Shown piece after piece: positions 16,617 through 25,735 of a stretch of DNA of 50,644 nucleotides. The stretch spans positions 1 through 50,644 of the forward strand of contig JAUVDV010000036.1 of assembly GCA_030595125.1 (NCBI GenBank). Reading direction: 5' to 3'. The notes under the pieces are model-generated. The model did not search any database and had not been told where the DNA came from. It was given only the letters and a program-made list of their open reading frames with translations. Each line of letters starts with the position of its first letter. Position 1 is the stretch's first letter. Both the position numbers and the translations under genes were made by a program. Source of the DNA: Deltaproteobacteria bacterium. GTDB taxonomy: Bacteria > Myxococcota_A > Polyangia > JAAYKL01.

Positions 16617-17155
16617 TTTCCTTTGTCCTCAATGCGCGGCTTGATCAAGGCGATCGCCTGCGCCGCATCCGTGGCCTCCATTATAGTGTCGGGGCGACGG
16701 TCGTCGATGGACTGACCCGCCAGCCTGGCCGCCCAGCCGCCGGTGGTGTTCATGGCCACTATTGGTTTGTCCATCTGCCAGGCGAAGGCCAGCTCTGAAA
16801 GGGTTCCGGCACATCCCCCCACGGCAATGACCGCCCACGCGGTCCTCGTGATCACTGCGTTCCTGGCCCATCCCATGCCGGTGGGGATCACTATGTCCAC
16901 GTGATGATTCGCCCAGTCCTCGCGATCCGTCGGTGTTATCCCGATAGCGAGATTGCGGCCCGACCCAAGCTCGTCCCGCGCGATCACAAACCCCTCGCAG
17001 GCCGCTTCCATCACGCCTGCGCCGCCGCCACACACCATGTGCCAGCCTTCTTTCGCAACAGCGCGTCCGACATCTGCCGCAACTTCCATCACTCCCTGTG
17101 TTGCGGAAGAAGCCCCGATGATTGCGATGACAGGTGTTCTTCTCAGTTTGCCCAA
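16613..17155 (-). CDS. SLOG/TIGR00725 family nucleotide-binding protein
   Basis: This 180-residue Rossmann-like protein resembles the LOG (lysine decarboxylase-like) superfamily: IAIIGASSATQ at the N-terminus, MVCGGGAGVMEAACEGF (the GGGxGxM signature) and a WAVIAVGGCAGTLSELAFAW loop in place of the canonical PGGxGTxxE. The TIGR00725 branch has no assigned reaction; SLOG domains are thought to bind or hydrolyse nucleotide derivatives. The start TTG at 17155 overlaps the kinase stop by 13 bases and has no visible binding site, so the exact start is uncertain. It overlaps tilS by 4 bases. Confidence 0.87.
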   Translation of the reverse strand: MGKLRRTPVIAIIGASSATQGVMEVAADVGRAVAKEGWHMVCGGGAGVMEAACEGFVIARDELGSGRNLAIGITPTDREDWANHHVDIVIPTGMGWARNAVITRTAWAVIAVGGCAGTLSELAFAWQMDKPIVAMNTTGGWAARLAGQSIDDRRPDTIMEATDAAQAIALIKPRIEDKGK

Positions 17156-18768
17156 GGATCGCTCAGATCGGAGTGCTTGTTCGTCTTCTTCTTCTTTACC
17201 TTGATCGTCTTCGTGGACCCGGACCCGCTGCCGGAAGAAGAGGATCCTGACGAGCTGGACTTTTTCTTGCTACGCCTCAGCTTTTTGAGGGTCAGCTCGA
17301 ACACATCGGGAGTCCCTGCAGAAACCACGATGTCCAGATTTTTGTAGCCGTCGAGCTTGATGGTGTAACCGACGGGCGTCTCGCCGAGTTTGGGCTTGAC
17401 CATTTCGAACGGCAGGTTGCCCATGAACGCCTCATCCCGATAGATGGACGCACCCTTGGGAACGCTGATCACGTTAACCGTCGAAGCTGCGGCCTCCGGC
17501 TTCTCGAGCACGGGTTCGGGGGTTGGTTCAGGAGTGGGCTCGGGAGTGAGCTGTGAAATCTCTACCTGCGGCTTGACCGGTTGCGCCTGCGCCTTCGTGG
17601 GCGTGGTTCCGACTCCGAGAACAAACACGGCCACAACAACGCCGATGACGGCGAGCGCGCCGATGCCGGCAAAGATCGGCCACTTGGAGCGCCCCTTGCT
17701 GCCCGGGATATCCTGCCGATGACGGGCGCCTTTCGAGCCGACCACTTCGGAGGGAGAAGGCGGGGGGACGGTGGTGGCGGCGGTATCCCGCATCTGGTCG
17801 AATACAATCTCCGGCGTGCGCTCTTCCTGTAACGCCAGAAGATCCTCGGAAAACTCCGCCATGGTCTGGTAGCGCTTCTCCGGCTTCTTGGCGATGGCCT
17901 TGAGAAGAACCGCCTCGACATTAGGATTAACGTCCACTGGCGGAACCAGTCGACGTGGGGGAATCGGCTCCTCGTAAAGGTGCTTGGTGAGAACACCCAT
18001 GAAGGTGTCCGCCTCGAACGGAACGTGCCCGCAGAGCATCTCGTACATGATGATGCCCAGAGAATAGATATCGGTGCGCGCGTCCACGTCGGCCCCGGCG
18101 GCCTGCTCCGGAGACATGTACTGGGGCGTTCCGAAGATCATTCCTGTCTTGGTCAACCGACTCGACTGGCTTGCCACCTTTGCGATCCCGAAATCGAGGA
18201 CCTTTACGAAATCTTCAACGTCCCCCTTTGTGATCAGGAAGATATTATCCGGTTTGAGATCCCGGTGAACGATATTGGAATTGTGCGCGGCGCCGAGGGC
18301 CTCACAACTCTGGATCATCACGTTGATCGTGCGTTCGAGGGTCAGGTCCACACGTTCTTCGATGACATCGTGAAGCGCATCGCCGTCGAGGAACTCCATC
18401 ACGAAATACGCCGAACCGTCCGGCAGCTGACCGAAGTCGGTGATCTCGATGATGTGTTCGTTGCCGATGGCTGCCGCGGACTGGGCCTCCTGCACGAACC
18501 GGGCTCCCACCTCGGACTCGTTGGAAAGCTCGCCGCGAAGAACCTTGAGCGCGCACTTCTTGCCGATGATCGCATGGGTGGCCAGGTAGACCACGCCCAT
18601 GCCGCCCTCGCCGATCTTGGTATCTATCTGGTACCTGCCGTCGATCGTGGTTCCTACAAGCGGATCTTCGACCTCTCCCTCTTCCAGCTCAACAAGGGAC
18701 TCGCCGTCAACCGGGCAAAACTCCTCTTCGCCGAGGAACCGCTTTCCACATTTGGGGCATGCTCTCAT
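17143..18768 (-). CDS. Transmembrane Ser/Thr protein kinase with N-terminal zinc knuckle and PEGA domain
   Basis: This is a 541-residue protein. The start at 18768 follows GGAGCGGAG and gives a zinc-knuckle N-terminus with Cys4, Cys7 and Cys18 (CPKCG...FCPVDG). The Hanks-type kinase domain (about 46-310) is complete: GEGGMG loop, Lys75, catalytic Asp170 in HRDLKPDN, DFG Asp192 and GTPQYMSPEQ. A transmembrane helix lies at about 364-386, followed by a Pro-Thr-Glu repeat (TPEPTPEPTPEP), a PEGA domain (about 428-500) and a Ser/Gly plus Lys-rich tail. Predicted to phosphorylate cytoplasmic targets in response to an envelope cue. It heads the SLOG-tilS-ftsH-folP-cdaA-ybbR run. Confidence 0.95.
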   Translation of the reverse strand: MRACPKCGKRFLGEEEFCPVDGESLVELEEGEVEDPLVGTTIDGRYQIDTKIGEGGMGVVYLATHAIIGKKCALKVLRGELSNESEVGARFVQEAQSAAAIGNEHIIEITDFGQLPDGSAYFVMEFLDGDALHDVIEERVDLTLERTINVMIQSCEALGAAHNSNIVHRDLKPDNIFLITKGDVEDFVKVLDFGIAKVASQSSRLTKTGMIFGTPQYMSPEQAAGADVDARTDIYSLGIIMYEMLCGHVPFEADTFMGVLTKHLYEEPIPPRRLVPPVDVNPNVEAVLLKAIAKKPEKRYQTMAEFSEDLLALQEERTPEIVFDQMRDTAATTVPPPSPSEVVGSKGARHRQDIPGSKGRSKWPIFAGIGALAVIGVVVAVFVLGVGTTPTKAQAQPVKPQVEISQLTPEPTPEPTPEPVLEKPEAAASTVNVISVPKGASIYRDEAFMGNLPFEMVKPKLGETPVGYTIKLDGYKNLDIVVSAGTPDVFELTLKKLRRSKKKSSSSGSSSSGSGSGSTKTIKVKKKKTNKHSDLSDPWAN

Positions 18769-18863
18769 TATGCTCCGCTCCACGAGGCAAACCACCCCGT
18801 AAAAAATCCCCCCACTTGTTATATACTACTTAGACGATAATGAATGGCAATGGATCTATCAAG

Positions 18864-20006
18864 TTATTCGGAATTGAGTTCGTCTGAAACACTCCACTCG
18901 ACACCATCGTAATGAAGGATCATCGCAGCCTGATATCCAAACTCGCCCTCAGCTCCGAATCCGCCGACCGCGTAGACATCGGTTGACGACGATCCCCACA
19001 CGTCCATCAGCTGAAGGTTTTCAACAGTCGGGATAATCATCTCGCTCCACGCGGCGCCATCGTAGTGGAGGATTTTGTCCAGCCCGACCGCGAATACACT
19101 GTCTGAGGAAAGACCATAGATACCATGAAGCGATACTGTTACCGGGCTTGTCATGTGCGACCAACCCAGACCGCTGTGGTGAAGAATTACGCCGTTTTGT
19201 CCAACGGCAAATGCGTCGTTGTCGGCGTGGGCCCAGACATCCAATAGAAAGCAGTTCAGGGGGAGAGAATGATACTGCCAGGCAGTTCCGTCGAATTTTG
19301 CGGTTTTCTCATCACCAACAACGAAGAGATTTCCACCGGGTGCGCCGGTCATCGAATAAAAATACCCATCGTAATATCCGGCCAGTGCCTCGAAATGCGC
19401 GGAGGTCCAATCAGAACCGTCGAAGTGAAGCAGCAACGGCGATAGGCCTACAAAGAGGCTTGTATCGTTCAGTATTGCATATACGTCATCAGAAGAATTC
19501 TCCCACACTGCTGTGGAAAAACAAGTGGTGCTTCCCTCATCGGTGGCATTTGCCCAGGCATCTCCATTGAAACGCATTATTGCGTACCCCGCCGATCCAT
19601 AGACAGTGCCGGAAGTTGTGTAAACATCATCCCAGGATCTGCCGTGGATATCGTGAATGCACATGGGTGACGGGGCAACGGTCAGTTCCCAGTTCGTACC
19701 ATCGCCGTGCAGCAGCGTTCCGTCGTAACCTCCGGCCCAGATATCTGTTGAAGACGAACCCCATATTGCAACCAATTTGCCGGCATTCTCCGGGAGATAG
19801 CCGGTTCCGGTATCCGTATCCGATTCCGAATCTGAATCTGACGCTGTGTCACTTTCACTGCCGGTATCGGTTTGTGAATCGGTCTCAGTATCTATTGTGC
19901 CGCCGGTTGGTTGTTCCTGCTGTTGCCAGCAACCCCAAATCACAAGAGCGAAAAAGAAGGGGGCAAACAAAAATGCTTGTGGTGCTTTGATCATGCTCTC
20001 TTGCAT
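18864..20006 (-). CDS. Lipoprotein with Asp/Ser/Thr spacer and WGSS..DVYAVG propeller-like repeats
   Basis: This is a protein of about 380 residues. The signal peptide ends VIWGC, followed by a spacer of TD, SD and SE pairs. The remainder consists of about six to seven repeats of roughly 45-55 residues with the pattern VWGSSSTDVYAVG...ILHYDGxxW, in line with a beta-propeller of the type abundant in myxobacterial lipoproteins. Start choice is uncertain: ATG at 20006 and ATG at 19994 both precede the signal peptide, and neither has a strong binding site. Surface display is inferred from the lipobox; the ligand is unknown. Confidence 0.85.
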   Translation of the reverse strand: MQESMIKAPQAFLFAPFFFALVIWGCWQQQEQPTGGTIDTETDSQTDTGSESDTASDSDSESDTDTGTGYLPENAGKLVAIWGSSSTDIWAGGYDGTLLHGDGTNWELTVAPSPMCIHDIHGRSWDDVYTTSGTVYGSAGYAIMRFNGDAWANATDEGSTTCFSTAVWENSSDDVYAILNDTSLFVGLSPLLLHFDGSDWTSAHFEALAGYYDGYFYSMTGAPGGNLFVVGDEKTAKFDGTAWQYHSLPLNCFLLDVWAHADNDAFAVGQNGVILHHSGLGWSHMTSPVTVSLHGIYGLSSDSVFAVGLDKILHYDGAAWSEMIIPTVENLQLMDVWGSSSTDVYAVGGFGAEGEFGYQAAMILHYDGVEWSVSDELNSE

Positions 20007-20123
20007 GTCTCGCCGAAGCTTCACGCGACGGTGGACGACAACGTTGCCCCTTTTTAAGACATTATATCGTAACGCAAGGTCGGAGACTGTCGAAAAACAC
20101 TTGGGGAAACACGTGGGGTCAAA

Positions 20124-20942
20124 CTAAGGCTGATAGAATTGGACGAGGATGGGGCCGCCATTTGATCGGAGGGTTATCTTCTTGTCGCCGGTTCCGCGAA
20201 CGTAACGAATCAGGCCGTCGCCGAGTTCCTGGGCAGACCCGGCCTCGAGGGACGCTGAAATTTCGATGCTGCCTCCATCCGGATAGCATGAGATCTCGAA
20301 ATTCTGGAGGGGGATCTCGACTTGAAGCAACTCCCCGTCCGTCTCCGCATCCAACGGGCGCCCATTCACACCACCGGCCAGCACGTGGGCCTGCCCCCCG
20401 GATTTTACGACAATCTCCCCTTCCGCCTCCACGCTGACATCACCGTCTTCCGCGACAGCGCTGACGATCGAGGTTCCCCCGCCTGTCACCGAGATGTCGC
20501 CCTTCCCCGTCTCGAGCGTCAGGGCCCCTTCCAGATCTTCCATGATAAGATCGCCGTCCTCAACCGTAACGGTCACACCCGCCTCGAGCGGTAACGTGCC
20601 GAGACGATCCAGCCTGAGATCCACGAGACCGACCTTGTCCCTCGGCGGATCAAACTTCAGCATCAATTCTGTAATGTCGGGGTTCACATCCAGCCGGGCC
20701 AGCCTGAGGTTAGCATGGGCATCCGCGTCGGTTCTCCCCATGGCAAATGCAGTGCCGCACAGCTTGACGTCTCCTGTCTCCATCCCCCGCATACTAATGT
20801 CCCCGTCCACGTTGACGATGCGCACGACCGAAAAACCGTCGAACGTAAAAGTCTCCTCGTAGTCATCCTGAGCCGAGAACTGGATCACGCAACCGGCCAG
20901 TAACAGCGCCGCCACCCATGACCACCGTTTCACAGATACCAT
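20124..20942 (-). CDS. Lipoprotein with DUF4097-like beta-helical (putative adhesin) domain
   Basis: This is a 272-residue protein. The start at 20942 is fixed by GGGAGG six bases upstream; it overlaps the stop of the caspase gene by 13 bases. The signal peptide ends LLAGC (Cys18). The body is a series of short strands with repeating DGDISMRG, EDGDLIMEDLEG, GKGDISVTGGG and EDGDVSVEAEGEIVV motifs, typical of the DUF4097 fold in which self-assembling beta turns follow one another. The last gene of the sigma factor/anti-sigma/caspase operon, it presumably works in the envelope with the caspase-like protein. Confidence 0.85.
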   Translation of the reverse strand: MVSVKRWSWVAALLLAGCVIQFSAQDDYEETFTFDGFSVVRIVNVDGDISMRGMETGDVKLCGTAFAMGRTDADAHANLRLARLDVNPDITELMLKFDPPRDKVGLVDLRLDRLGTLPLEAGVTVTVEDGDLIMEDLEGALTLETGKGDISVTGGGTSIVSAVAEDGDVSVEAEGEIVVKSGGQAHVLAGGVNGRPLDAETDGELLQVEIPLQNFEISCYPDGGSIEISASLEAGSAQELGDGLIRYVRGTGDKKITLRSNGGPILVQFYQP

Positions 20943-23011
20943 GTGAGACCTCCCAGATACTCGATCGCAAACGCCCCGTGAGTCTGCGCGACATCGCCGT
21001 GAAATCGCCTCGTCTGGACAGCGACCCCGCCGCGAATTCCGAAATCCAGAGACCACGAACGCGCCGGGAAGTAGTGCAGCGAGCCGGACAGGTACGGAAA
21101 AAGGCCCCACCCGGATTCTACATCGGCGAGGACGCGATCCTCGTCGTCCCCCGACAAGGTCTCCGAGTCCATGTGAATCTGAACGAGCATTCCCACACTG
21201 GAAGACAATCCCAGGTTGTCATTCAACATCCCGCGCAGACGAATCTCCGGCGCAAAGCTTAAGGTAGTCAAGCCCGTACTGGGAATCACGTTGACGTTCC
21301 GCAACCCGATTACAACGTGCTCGTGCACCGCGTAGCCCACACCTAATCCTCCTCCGAACCCGCCGTCCACACTGTCTCCGTTCACGGGAACGATGCAGGG
21401 GGCCATTGAGAGCGTGAGATCCAGCTTGAGTTCTTTGAAGTCGGGGGCGCCCGGTCCACCCTTCGTTGTGGAATAAAACGCGTCGATGGCGGAATAGGCG
21501 TACGTATAGAAAGCGGCAAGGGCAAGGGTGCCCATCCCCGCCAGCTTTGCGGCGCGAACCTCCCTCGAGTCACCCTGATTCATACCGTACGCCAACCCGA
21601 CGCCACCCGCGACGGAGCCGGCGAAGACTCCGGTAAGAACTGCCGCCTTGCCCAACCTCCCGTCAATCCCCTGCCCGAGGCCGGGAAGAAGCAGCGAGGC
21701 GCCCATAGATGCCGCCGGAGGAATTCGCGCGCCGGATCTTTTTGCAAATGACCTTGAGTCGTCGAACCCGTTGTCGCCCACTTCCTGCGGTTCTTCCGGC
21801 CCTTCCGGCTCACTCGGTTCGTCCGGTCCCGTTTCGACCACCGGGGGCCTGCGCACAGCCGCCGTGTCCCCGGACCAGGCCGCTCCCCCGCCGAGGGGTA
21901 TGTCGTCGAGGGGCGCCACAGATCCGCGCCCGGCCCCGAACTCGTGTTCCGTGACCGCGCCCTTCAAAACAACCGACTCGAGGGGAATGGAGGTGAAACT
22001 CCCGGCGGATAGAGGCACCTGCGCGCCGTCAGCGAGGTTAACGTCGGCGGTACCGAGACTCTCGCTGGATCGCCACCGCACCTCGTACTCCCCGGGAAAC
22101 AGCGCCACCGTCACCGGAACGCCGTTCTTCTTGGCGACCTCGGCTTCTATCTGACCGCCCTTGCCGATGAAGAGAACTGTGCCCTCCATGGCCGGCGCGA
22201 GTTTCACCCGGGCGCGTCCGTCTCCGATCGCGGTGAGCGCAATGTCGCCTTCGCCTTCCAGAGCGTACAGAAAGGTCGGATGCTGAACCCCCGCCGTCGT
22301 TCCCTCTGTCTCGCGCACCGTGTACTTGTAGGCGTAGTCGTAGGCCTCGATGGCCGAGACCCTCCCGTCTCCGGTGTTGTCGGCCGCGCCTCGCAGCCCG
22401 GACATGAGGTGGTGGCTGAAGAACGAAGATTGCAGGATCTCGGATTCCTGGGCCGGCTCGGTCGCGGAAGCCGACGTGATGATCACGAGCCCCTTCACGT
22501 TGACGGGTCGTTCGTCCATGAACGGCGAGATTACCTTGCCGCCCTTTGCTCTCGTGATTTCTCCGGACTGGCAGGCGTCCACGATGGCCACGCGAACCTT
22601 CGCCGGCAGAAGTTCGAGCCGCCGGCGGATCTCCTCGAGGGATATTCCCCGTCCGCCCATCCGCAGATATCCGGAATCCGCATGCCCGGAGTAGTAGAAG
22701 AGGAACACGGAATCACCGCCCGCGCTCGAAGCCTCTTCCACGAGTTCGTCGAAAGCCCCGCGCAGATCCTTAGGGAAGCTACCCGTCAGGAGGATCAAGT
22801 TCTCCTCTCGAACACCGCCTATTTCCGAAAGCAGCGCCGCCATCCTCTTTGCGTCCTGCTCGGCGTACTTGAGGGGCTCGCTTCTGGACAGGCCCTGGTT
22901 GTTACCCGCGACGATGGCAAATCGGACGACCTCCGAGGCGAAGGACTCCCTACCCAGCAGCGCAACCACCAGCACTCCAACGAACATCGCCGCCTTGAAA
23001 ACCCGTTCCAC
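20930..23011 (-). CDS. Exported caspase-family (C14) peptidase fused to a C-terminal membrane/barrel region
   Basis: This is a 693-residue protein. The signal peptide is residues 1-25 (cleavage SFA-S). The caspase-like domain (about 28-255) has the catalytic dyad His110 (FYYSGHAD) and Cys147 (VDACQSG). A beta-rich region (about 258-350), Pro/Glu-rich linker (about 385-425), hydrophobic Gly-rich segment with LLLPGLGQG (about 440-480) and a C-terminal portion of likely outer-membrane strands (about 525-693, ending LGGLTWYL) follow. Bacterial C14 peptidases are often linked to signalling or cell death; an exported one attached to a barrel is less usual. The start is GTG at 23011, 9 bases after the anti-sigma-like gene, and the 3' end overlaps the DUF4097 gene. 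Confidence 0.9.
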   Translation of the reverse strand: MERVFKAAMFVGVLVVALLGRESFASEVVRFAIVAGNNQGLSRSEPLKYAEQDAKRMAALLSEIGGVREENLILLTGSFPKDLRGAFDELVEEASSAGGDSVFLFYYSGHADSGYLRMGGRGISLEEIRRRLELLPAKVRVAIVDACQSGEITRAKGGKVISPFMDERPVNVKGLVIITSASATEPAQESEILQSSFFSHHLMSGLRGAADNTGDGRVSAIEAYDYAYKYTVRETEGTTAGVQHPTFLYALEGEGDIALTAIGDGRARVKLAPAMEGTVLFIGKGGQIEAEVAKKNGVPVTVALFPGEYEVRWRSSESLGTADVNLADGAQVPLSAGSFTSIPLESVVLKGAVTEHEFGAGRGSVAPLDDIPLGGGAAWSGDTAAVRRPPVVETGPDEPSEPEGPEEPQEVGDNGFDDSRSFAKRSGARIPPAASMGASLLLPGLGQGIDGRLGKAAVLTGVFAGSVAGGVGLAYGMNQGDSREVRAAKLAGMGTLALAAFYTYAYSAIDAFYSTTKGGPGAPDFKELKLDLTLSMAPCIVPVNGDSVDGGFGGGLGVGYAVHEHVVIGLRNVNVIPSTGLTTLSFAPEIRLRGMLNDNLGLSSSVGMLVQIHMDSETLSGDDEDRVLADVESGWGLFPYLSGSLHYFPARSWSLDFGIRGGVAVQTRRFHGDVAQTHGAFAIEYLGGLTWYL

Positions 23012-23020
23012 TCCCTTGCG

Positions 23021-23824
23021 CTACTCCTTGATTATCCACACGCTTGCCTGCTCACAGGTGAGCGGCAATCGATCGATCTTCTTGAGATTCACGCCGGATT
23101 CTACCAGCGCTTTCGCGGCCCCAAAAACCTTGTCGACACCGAGGTCTTTTCCAGAACACAGGAAGAACCTCTCCACACCCACCGCATCGTCGAGCTCGAT
23201 GGTGAGATCCTTACCGTCGCGACCGGGAAGATAGGTGGTGACCGAACCACGTCCGTCGATCCCCACCATCACGACGGGAAGATCGACCGGGAGGTCGTAC
23301 CAGAACTGGATGCTGTCACCCTCTTTCAGCTTCTGCCCGGAGGCGCCCATTGTTTTCCCGTCGCCGCTCTTGAGATAGAAACCGAGGTTCGACCCCGAAG
23401 GAGCATTGTCGCCTCCCGGATTTTTGGGTGAGCCCATGAGGTTGATGTTCTCGTCGAGACGCTTGTCGTTCCACCCGGGAAACAGCTCCGTTGAACGCGA
23501 ATCGTGCGACGGGCCGCCGGTGAGAAAAATCACCGCCACGACCGCCGCCGCCGCGACGGGAACCGCAACCGCAACCCTGGCGAACCAGCTGTCGAACAAG
23601 CCGCGGCGCTCCGGGGAGGTCCACAGCTTGCGAATCTCTGCCGGGACAGGAAGCATGGCAAACGCCTTTTCATCCGCTTCGGTGTCGGCCAGCAGCTCGC
23701 CGCATGTCTCGCACTGCGCCGCGACGCTCTTCAGGGCGGACATCTCCGCTTCGCTCATCTCGCCGAGGATATATCGCTCAACCGCCAGACGGCTGAGGTG
23801 TACGTGTTTGTCCGAGTTGCTCAT
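23021..23824 (-). CDS. Membrane anti-sigma-factor-like protein with DUF4384-like periplasmic domain
   Basis: This is a 267-residue protein. The ATG at 23824 overlaps the sigma factor stop by 4 bases (ATGA), so the two are coupled. The N-terminal cytoplasmic part (about 1-70) has the helical layout of zinc-finger anti-sigma domains (RYILGEMSEAEM...QCETCGELL), but the His normally four residues before the CxxC is not there, so zinc binding may be altered. One transmembrane helix (about 84-105, VAVAVPVAAAAVVAVIFLTGG) is followed by a periplasmic domain with strands like DUF4384 (FYLKSGDG...GDSIQFWYDL...VGIDGRGSVTTYLPG). Likely holds the ECF factor until an envelope signal arrives. Confidence 0.82.
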   Translation of the reverse strand: MSNSDKHVHLSRLAVERYILGEMSEAEMSALKSVAAQCETCGELLADTEADEKAFAMLPVPAEIRKLWTSPERRGLFDSWFARVAVAVPVAAAAVVAVIFLTGGPSHDSRSTELFPGWNDKRLDENINLMGSPKNPGGDNAPSGSNLGFYLKSGDGKTMGASGQKLKEGDSIQFWYDLPVDLPVVMVGIDGRGSVTTYLPGRDGKDLTIELDDAVGVERFFLCSGKDLGVDKVFGAAKALVESGVNLKKIDRLPLTCEQASVWIIKE

Positions 23825-24321
23825 CGTCCCGCCCTCAGCAATCGCATGGCCCGCTTTGGCGCCCGCTCCTTGAACTTGACGATGCGCTTTCGCACCAGCG
23901 AAACAGAACAACCCATCACCTCGGATATCTCCCGATAGGTCATCTCCTCGACCACCGCGTACATCATCGTCTCCCGGATCTTCTCATCGAAACCGACCAT
24001 CACCTGCATTACGAAATCCCTGGACCAGGTCTCTACCGGCTGGTGCGGCTCCGGCTCGACGAGCGCCTCCTTGTCGAGTCGATCTCGATTCTTGGAGTCA
24101 CGGATTCGGTTGAGGCAGATGTTTGTGGCTATTCGGTACAACCAGGTGGCGGGGGAAGCCTGACCGCGAAAGCTCGCCATGGAGCGCATGGCGCGGATGA
24201 ACACCTCCTGGGAAGCGTCCTGCGCGTCGTCCTCGTTGCGTAGTATTCCCAGGCAACGACGGCGAACCATTCCGCCGTAGCGACGATAGATATCCTCGAT
24301 TTCCCTCGAGCCGGCCTTCAT
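23821..24321 (-). CDS. ECF-subfamily RNA polymerase sigma factor
   Basis: This is a 166-residue protein. Region 2 (about 5-75) contains YRRYGGMVRRRCLGILRNEDDAQDASQEVFIRA and the -10-recognition stretch FRGQASPATWLYRIATNICLNRIR. Region 4 (about 105-160) contains the HTH MTYREISEVMGCSVSLVRKRI. The start at 24321 is favoured by GGGGAA five bases upstream and by the family's usual short N-terminus; an in-frame ATG at 24408 with AGGAGGG only two bases away would add 29 residues. It is the first gene of the sigma/anti-sigma/caspase/DUF4097 operon and probably activates its own transcription. Confidence 0.95.
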   Translation of the reverse strand: MKAGSREIEDIYRRYGGMVRRRCLGILRNEDDAQDASQEVFIRAMRSMASFRGQASPATWLYRIATNICLNRIRDSKNRDRLDKEALVEPEPHQPVETWSRDFVMQVMVGFDEKIRETMMYAVVEEMTYREISEVMGCSVSLVRKRIVKFKERAPKRAMRLLRAGR

Positions 24322-24336
24322 ACACGTTCCCCTCGT

Positions 24337-24352
24337 GGTGAAAACATTCACC
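24337..24352. promoter_or_regulatory. Perfect inverted repeat in the leader of the ECF sigma operon
   Basis: GGTGAA-AACA-TTCACC lies 15 bases upstream of the preferred sigma factor ATG. It could be an operator or a small mRNA hairpin next to the ribosome binding site. Confidence 0.35.
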
Positions 24353-24516
24353 GCGTTTGCCCGCTGCGTCAAGTTGCTGATGGGAATTGCCGATGCGATC
24401 GCGTTCATGCCCTCCTGCCTTTCATAGGGTTGGACACATACCGCGGCCAAAAGTGTCACCGAAAATATCAGTTCTGGTATTATTGAATGGATTGTCCGCC
24501 TGGGTCAGACGCTTGT

Positions 24517-24547: not shown

Positions 24548-24571
24548 ATGAACGAGATTGAGGGGAGGAAA

Positions 24572-25735
24572 ATGAAGGCAATATTGAAACTGGCTGTGGT
24601 TGTCGTGTGTCTGGCCGCCTGCGGCGTTAGTGACAAGAAGATCACTCCCGACTCCGGGACCGACACGGACACCGATGCTGACACCGACACCGATACCGAC
24701 ACGGATACGACATCGTATTGGGATTGGCAGGAGTCGGATATCCCGAATGAGATCTATAACGCCCACGATGATTTTCTACTCTGGGCGGCGGACGTGGACG
24801 ATGTGGTGGTCTGTTCCGGCGATGACCAAGGCGGCCTCGCCGAGTTCAACGGCGCATCGTTCACCGTGTCGACTCTGCCTTCGGGAATCGGCGTATTCGG
24901 GTGCGAAGGTGTGTGGGGCAACGGCACGGATGTCTGGGCATGGGGATTTCTCGGATTCGACTATGACGAATTCCGCGTATTGCGGCGCGATGGGGCGGCC
25001 TGGGTCGAGGAGCCGGTGGAGGGTTTCGAGGACTGCGCCTCGGCGCCCGAGTACTGCCACATACAGGCGATGTTCGCGGACGGCGTCGGCGCGCCCCGCG
25101 CAACCGGTTGGTCCGACGCGGATTGGGACCCGCCCGTGGTGGGAGCGCGCGTCGTGTGGGAGCGACAGGTGGCGACTGAGTCGTGGACCGTCGATACGGG
25201 CGCCGTCTTTCCCGGTTTCGACACAATGGAATGGATGTGCAATATCGTCAGCGGCTCCGTTCCAGTGTGGGTCGGCGCTATGGACTCTGTATCGAAGGTT
25301 CTCGAAGTCGCCGCCGGGATAGTCGATCTGGGCTATCCGCAATCGGAGTGGATAAGGTGGTTGGACCGGGACGGCGCGGGCGGGCTCGTCGCAAGCACCG
25401 GTTTCGATCTGCTACGGTACGATGGCGTCACGTGGAACGTGGAGGCGAGCACTACGTGCGACCCCGGCCCGTTGAATACCTGCTGGAACATCGGGGCTGT
25501 GGACGCCGACGGGGCCGTGTACCTCGGCGACGGCCGAGGCGGCTTCGGCGATGGCGGGTCGGGCCAGTGGTGGCTGCACCGATGGGACGGGGAGAACCTC
25601 GCGGAGATCCTCGAGCCTTGCCCGGAGCCCAACCCGTCTTGCGGCATTACAGACGTAACCGTGGTTGGAAACCGCATCTACGCGGTCGGAAGACGCGACT
25701 ACACCGGAGTACTCCTCTGGGCCGATATTCCCTGA
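24572..25735 (+). CDS. Lipoprotein with Asp/Thr spacer and propeller-like repeats
   Basis: This is a 387-residue protein. The start at 24572 is supported by GGGGAGG at 24562-24568 and by the signal peptide that follows, ending LAAC (Cys17). A spacer of DT pairs occupies about residues 29-46. The remainder resembles the WGSS-type lipoprotein at 18864 in rhythm, with motifs such as EGVWGNGTDVWAWG, VLRRDGAAWVEE, LLRYDGVTWNVE and RIYAVGRRDYTG, so a divergent propeller is likely. Several Cys pairs could form disulfides. It is transcribed divergently from the sigma factor operon. No function can be assigned. Confidence 0.82.
   Translation: MKAILKLAVVVVCLAACGVSDKKITPDSGTDTDTDADTDTDTDTDTTSYWDWQESDIPNEIYNAHDDFLLWAADVDDVVVCSGDDQGGLAEFNGASFTVSTLPSGIGVFGCEGVWGNGTDVWAWGFLGFDYDEFRVLRRDGAAWVEEPVEGFEDCASAPEYCHIQAMFADGVGAPRATGWSDADWDPPVVGARVVWERQVATESWTVDTGAVFPGFDTMEWMCNIVSGSVPVWVGAMDSVSKVLEVAAGIVDLGYPQSEWIRWLDRDGAGGLVASTGFDLLRYDGVTWNVEASTTCDPGPLNTCWNIGAVDADGAVYLGDGRGGFGDGGSGQWWLHRWDGENLAEILEPCPEPNPSCGITDVTVVGNRIYAVGRRDYTGVLLWADIP

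Follow-up and report, generated by a model that had tools for sequence, protein, structure and literature searches.

The window, a stretch of 50,644 nucleotides from a contig of a Deltaproteobacteria bacterium, carries four closely packed genes on the minus strand (Table 1). The first encodes an ECF sigma factor, the second a membrane anti-sigma-like protein, the third an exported C14 caspase and the last a DUF4097-like lipoprotein. The initial annotation had given spacings of −4, +9 and −13 bases between them, and this layout was reproduced. The same three spacings are found in another genome of the genus (G002), and the +9 and −13 spacings also in G001, where the contig stops short of the sigma gene. 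The sigma gene ends at 23821, and its start is probably not 24321 but an in-frame ATG at 24408. An AGGAGG ribosome-binding site (24416-24411) is found 7 bases 5′ of this ATG and is kept in G002. The sigma protein matches Sigma70_r2 (66.3 bits, cut-off 24, E 2e-18) and Sigma70_r4_2 (29.5 bits, cut-off 25.7, E 6e-7) from Pfam, as well as TIGR02937 (76.7 bits, cut-off 42.9). With regions 2 and 4 both exceeding the curated cut-offs in a short protein, it is an ECF sigma factor.

Table 1. Genes, protein domains and other features of the operon, with positions in the window
Feature	Position	Strand	Description
DUF4097-like lipoprotein	20124..20942	-	272 aa, LAGC lipobox; lineage-restricted addition
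Exported C14 caspase (export predicted)	20930..23011	-	693 aa, GTG start; PF00656; 9 bases past anti-sigma gene
Predicted C-terminal outer-membrane beta-barrel of caspase	20933..21643	-	residues 457-693; about 10 long strands, moderate pLDDT
Caspase domain	22226..22930	-	residues 28-262; H110 and C147; similar to metacaspase-4
Membrane anti-sigma-like protein	23021..23824	-	267 aa; 4-base overlap with sigma gene; structure model
DUF4384-type periplasmic beta domain of anti-sigma (predicted)	23024..23395	-	residues 144-267; homologue matches, model, structure search
M130-G131 in anti-sigma stalk	23432..23437	-	at the family's K-G place; alignment, stalk list
Predicted membrane helix of anti-sigma	23522..23596	-	residues 77-101; model
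ECF sigma factor	23821..24408	-	195 aa from probable ATG 24408 (166 aa from ATG 24321); Sigma70_r2, Sigma70_r4_2
Conserved block 5′ of sigma gene, GTGACACTTT-N5-GCGGTATGTGTCC	24432..24459	-	kept between window and G002; promoter role putative

The initial annotation had looked to a sigma-factor promoter motif upstream of 24321. A gapped-dimer search of the approximate upstream regions of 70 sigma genes gave no informative motif, since the k-mers were largely limited to the Myxococcus/Corallococcus group and probably overlap coding sequence. With up to 3 mismatches allowed, the conserved block in front of the sigma gene has a single match in the genome, so it gives no sign of a regulon. Both sides of the operon are occupied by lipoprotein-like proteins with Ser/Asp/Thr-rich low-complexity linkers (18864-20024, minus strand; 24548-25735, plus strand). 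A Ser/Thr kinase is encoded at 17143-18795 (minus strand); G001, G002 and G003 likewise have a homologue downstream of their caspase gene, and at locus L058 a homologous kinase stretch (40%) follows shortly past the caspase.

The second protein is predicted to have a sigma-binding domain in the cytoplasm and to cross the membrane by one helix; a disordered stalk and a domain of the DUF4384 type would then lie in the periplasm. In the structure model, N-terminal helices and the membrane helix are followed by a stalk of very low confidence (residues 103-140) and a beta domain; the structure search covered residues 142-267 only. DUF4384 (PF14326) matches 16 of the 31 aligned proteins and zf-HC2 matches 4 of them, the window protein matching neither. 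The H-x3-C-x2-C signature of zf-HC2 is incomplete in the window protein, where C-x2-C is present and Ala replaces His. A PHROGs comparison gave no match. The general features of a transmembrane anti-sigma factor are in place, namely a helical N-terminal domain, a membrane helix and a periplasmic domain in the model, and a gene coupled to that of the sigma factor by a 4-base overlap.

The third protein matches Peptidase_C14 (PF00656; 44.6 bits, cut-off 21.4, E 1.8e-11), and its caspase domain superposes on metacaspase-4 (6w8r_A) with a Z score of 22.7 and an rmsd of 2.5 (209 aligned residues, 21% identity). The model shows an apparent N-terminal signal sequence, the caspase domain, a beta domain, a disordered linker and some 10 long strands. 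The His-Cys dyad (H110, C147) is present in 121/121 aligned rows, a few of which are the same locus twice. Two acidic residues, D53 and D145, are likewise invariant, and align with Asp95 and Asp211 of TbMCA2, the proposed S1 pocket residues of that enzyme (PMC4357240). In these sequence features, the caspases of the window type resemble metacaspases that are specific for basic residues. The caspase domain is predicted to lie in the periplasm, held to the outer membrane by the C-terminal barrel, a call made with moderate confidence. One relative has a PF13505 match, and the C-terminal residue is F, L or Y in 33/60 caspases, compared to 5/59 sigma factors and 0/60 anti-sigma proteins.

Could this caspase be a killer, in a device for self-destruction or against phages? 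We consider this very improbable. There is a weak PADLOC caspase match (E 1.7e-4) that would fit such a role, but no other defence model matched, the EACC1-associated caspase model NF047832 scores 60.4 bits, far under its cut-off of 140, and the predicted export of the enzyme also speaks against it. The protein matched no TPR or CHAT model and does not fall into the CRISPR CASP (Csx29) class.

The recurrent unit is one of three genes: the ECF sigma factor, the DUF4384-type membrane anti-sigma and the exported C14 caspase. For these three, the proposal of a single transcription unit is well supported by spacing and recurrence; the fourth gene, which the initial annotation had included, lies outside the general system. 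Its product scores 19.5 bits against DUF4097 (PF13349; E 7e-4), below the curated 22.9. When other genomes were compared, co-occurrence of all four genes was rare, with the DUF4097 gene limited to the window, G001, G002 and G006, and a four-gene system was rejected because this gene is lineage-restricted. In G003, a Ser/Thr kinase gene takes its place directly behind the orthologous caspase gene.

A caspase homologue was found in 36 of 59 related genomes. The order sigma, anti-sigma, caspase was counted by hand in 29/41 first loci, including the window; in the remaining ones, the pair follows the caspase or is divergent, the anti-sigma-like protein has no N-terminal domain, the contig ends, or there is no pair. 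In the first sample, 5 caspases are encoded upstream of the sigma/anti-sigma pair and 3 have no pair nearby. In a set of 80 named-genome loci, mostly from Myxococcota with the addition of bins labelled Fibrobacteria, Chitinivibrionales, Spirochaetaceae and Acidobacteria, the trio is found in 72, and a contig end interrupts 5 of the remaining 8. Approached from the anti-sigma side, a caspase is directly downstream in 65 of the 74 best anti-sigma matches from the 59 related genomes.

Since the named-genome loci had been found via the caspase, we made a second count in a phylum-wide sample for which the anti-sigma profile was the sole criterion. Strong profile matches occur in 41 of the 141 sampled Myxococcota genomes. 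A caspase is directly downstream in 38/40 loci and a sigma factor upstream in 37/40; of the two loci that lack the caspase, L239 stops at a contig edge and L230 lacks the anti-sigma domain. The sigma and caspase distances correlate (r 0.83, 58 loci), showing that the genes travel together. Some lineages have many caspase paralogues. The genome of the window (G000) has one C14 match only, whereas G003 and G005, of the same family, have 17 and 16 matches to the window caspase.

The linkage between sigma factors and metacaspases is itself already known. Asplund-Samuelsson et al. reported sigma-70 genes in four metacaspase operons of Myxococcus xanthus in 2012, and found operons of the same structure in Anaeromyxobacter, Haliangium, Sorangium, Ralstonia and Fibrobacter (PMC3501461). 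These cases share with the window a sigma factor and a caspase homologue in one predicted operon, in the Deltaproteobacteria, and the window operon very probably belongs to the same group. Part of the idea in the initial annotation was thus already on record. The operon passage of that paper, however, contains no anti-sigma factor, DUF4384 domain, barrel, stalk motif or mechanism. In the open PMC literature we found no account of a DUF4384 anti-sigma as the middle gene, of the predicted outer-membrane anchor or of the stalk motif, and the titles and abstracts of the DUF4384 papers in this set are unrelated to sigma factors.

This stalk motif is R-x-K-G, which recurs shortly before the DUF4384 domain across stalks that are otherwise variable. 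Among 65 non-redundant stalks, dominated by one phylum and with shared ancestry, KG is found in 57, against a mean of 16 and a maximum of 27 in composition shuffles, and R-x-KG in 41, against a mean of 1.4 and a maximum of 7. Because the motif was first spotted in this set, the phylum sample is the cleaner test; here, with the same reservation as to phylum and ancestry, KG is found in 34/40 (shuffles: mean 7.7, maximum 17) and R-x-K[GS] in 27/40 (shuffles: mean 0.9, maximum 5). The 65-stalk and 40-locus counts may be slightly low, as some proteins with long linkers, truncations or a C-terminal shift (L080, L103, L236) had their stalks misplaced by the hydrophobicity-based finder. When the phylum sample was recounted with the profile as anchor, R-x-K[GSA] was found in 31/39; the figure for [KR]G, 39/39, is not specific to the stalk since some 130 residues were searched. 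In the control, R-x-KG occurs in 0/20 other anti-sigma-like proteins from the same genomes.

Departures from the motif are mostly conservative: K-S (L040, L117, L223), K-A (L225, L228) and R-G (L135, L240). Where the position after the putative cut, P1′, is changed, it is mostly S or A, and P1 is R in some proteins; a basic-specific protease that takes a small P1′ would tolerate both. Small residues are generally favoured just after the cut. One anti-sigma protein, next to a divergent caspase (L181:2429-3742), carries five tandem FRVKS[DN]APAS-like repeats in its stalk. In the clade of the window (window, G001, G002, G003 and G006), M-G replaces K-G and the S1 acids of the caspase are unchanged. 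Clade-specific caspase positions (41, 138, 162, 195 and 289) were considered as a cause of this replacement and gave no clear reading.

The position of the motif allows for another explanation. A structural role is possible because K-G is only a few residues before the first strand of the folded domain, and K-G might thus be a feature of the DUF4384 boundary, or else the site of an unrelated protease, with the caspase uninvolved. Three sigma/anti-sigma pairs that keep R-x-KG with no adjacent caspase (L172, L173 and L174, in genomes that hold other caspase matches) would fit this explanation, and show that the caspase is not required beside a motif-bearing pair. It is nevertheless quite unlikely in our view, as conservation extends to the R three residues before G, and as the motif is absent both from four membrane DUF4384 proteins without the anti-sigma domain (L039, L056, L175 and L230) and from the domain start of the separate DUF4384 lipoproteins L162, L164 and L166. 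Two of these lipoproteins, L162 and L166, come directly after an ORF that by eye resembles a CHAT protease.

Two of the membrane proteins without the anti-sigma domain, L039 and L056, still adjoin a caspase, and DUF4384, a known partner of orthocaspases, occurs fused to them in cyanobacteria (PMC7475262, PMC8283722). Both points would suit a DUF4384 domain that binds the caspase, such that binding and not cleavage matters, the anti-sigma serving as a docking site or inhibitor, or the bound caspase shielding the anti-sigma. We regard this as rather unlikely. Binding does not by itself require the K-G motif, the catalytic residues of the caspase are invariant, and once other distances are accounted for the partial correlation between the anti-sigma C-domain and the caspase is weak (0.11).

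The resemblance of these caspases to basic-specific metacaspases suggests that K-G may be a cleavage site, and the caspase the trigger of the system and not, or not only, its output. Prokaryotic orthocaspases are described as cutting behind positively charged residues (PMC6426788), and MaOC1 cuts after clusters of basic residues (PMC7935541). There is also a precedent in the Csx29-Csx30-CASP-sigma system, where a sigma inhibitor is cleaved by a protease of the caspase superfamily; this cleavage is proposed to lift the inhibition of an ECF-type sigma factor (PMC10028731). Csx29 differs in being a TPR-CHAT protease that is switched on by Cas7-11 and target RNA, in place of an exported C14 caspase and a membrane anti-sigma. 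Together, the motif, the invariant S1 acids, orthocaspase specificity and this precedent lend plausibility to a cut of the anti-sigma by the caspase.

Our tentative proposal, to which we would give somewhat less than an even chance, is that this is an envelope-signalling operon in which the caspase cuts the anti-sigma stalk and thereby frees the sigma factor. Envelope disturbance would activate the caspase or bring it within reach of the anti-sigma, and the stalk would be cut at a basic residue, in most family members between K and G of R-x-K-G. The leftover membrane stub would be removed by further proteolysis in a cascade of the RseA type, freeing a sigma factor that may also transcribe its own operon. 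In the RseA/DegS/RseP cascade of sigma-E, too, a membrane anti-sigma is cut periplasmically to start sigma release, as proposed here; there the site-1 protease is the serine protease DegS, whereas in the present case the operon itself would supply a cysteine caspase for this step. The ECF54 group (PMC8999054) is a further parallel, with CHAT-domain and other proteases in the context of an ECF sigma factor and proteolytic control proposed. That said, ECF54 is described as controlled without an anti-sigma, which the window operon has.

With M-G in the window's own clade, and with the motif kept in L172-L174, which have no caspase next to them, the mechanism is a testable hypothesis, and a weaker one for the copy in the window. 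With methionine in place of the P1 lysine, the window clade would cut elsewhere, have changed specificity or have lost the stalk step.

In the order of events that the initial annotation read from the layout, the caspase is produced by the freed sigma factor. The envelope signal would then free the sigma factor via other proteases, with the exported caspase as an output that acts on envelope or extracellular proteins. As textbook background, the targets of ECF sigma factors often include their own operon, and the caspase is the third gene of this one; its predicted export and the existence of pairs with no neighbouring caspase (L172-L174) also suit an output. We think it somewhat unlikely, for it leaves unexplained both the R-x-K-G motif in the anti-sigma and the caspase beside nearly every DUF4384 anti-sigma of the window type. 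The conserved stalk motif would make action of the caspase on the anti-sigma at least as likely as a caspase that is the output of the sigma factor.

The proposal that the caspase cuts the anti-sigma can be stated for the family as a whole. The outer-membrane-tethered periplasmic metacaspase would then serve a widespread class of ECF anti-sigma factors as their dedicated site-1 protease, cutting R-x-K-G in the stalk between K and G, and would be a transducer of envelope signals, not a death enzyme. In this general form we hold it to be less likely than not. To our knowledge, the roles of prokaryotic caspase homologues are largely unknown. Should the caspase indeed cut the anti-sigma, this would give a large group of bacterial caspases a defined substrate with a predicted scissile bond, and a physiological role.
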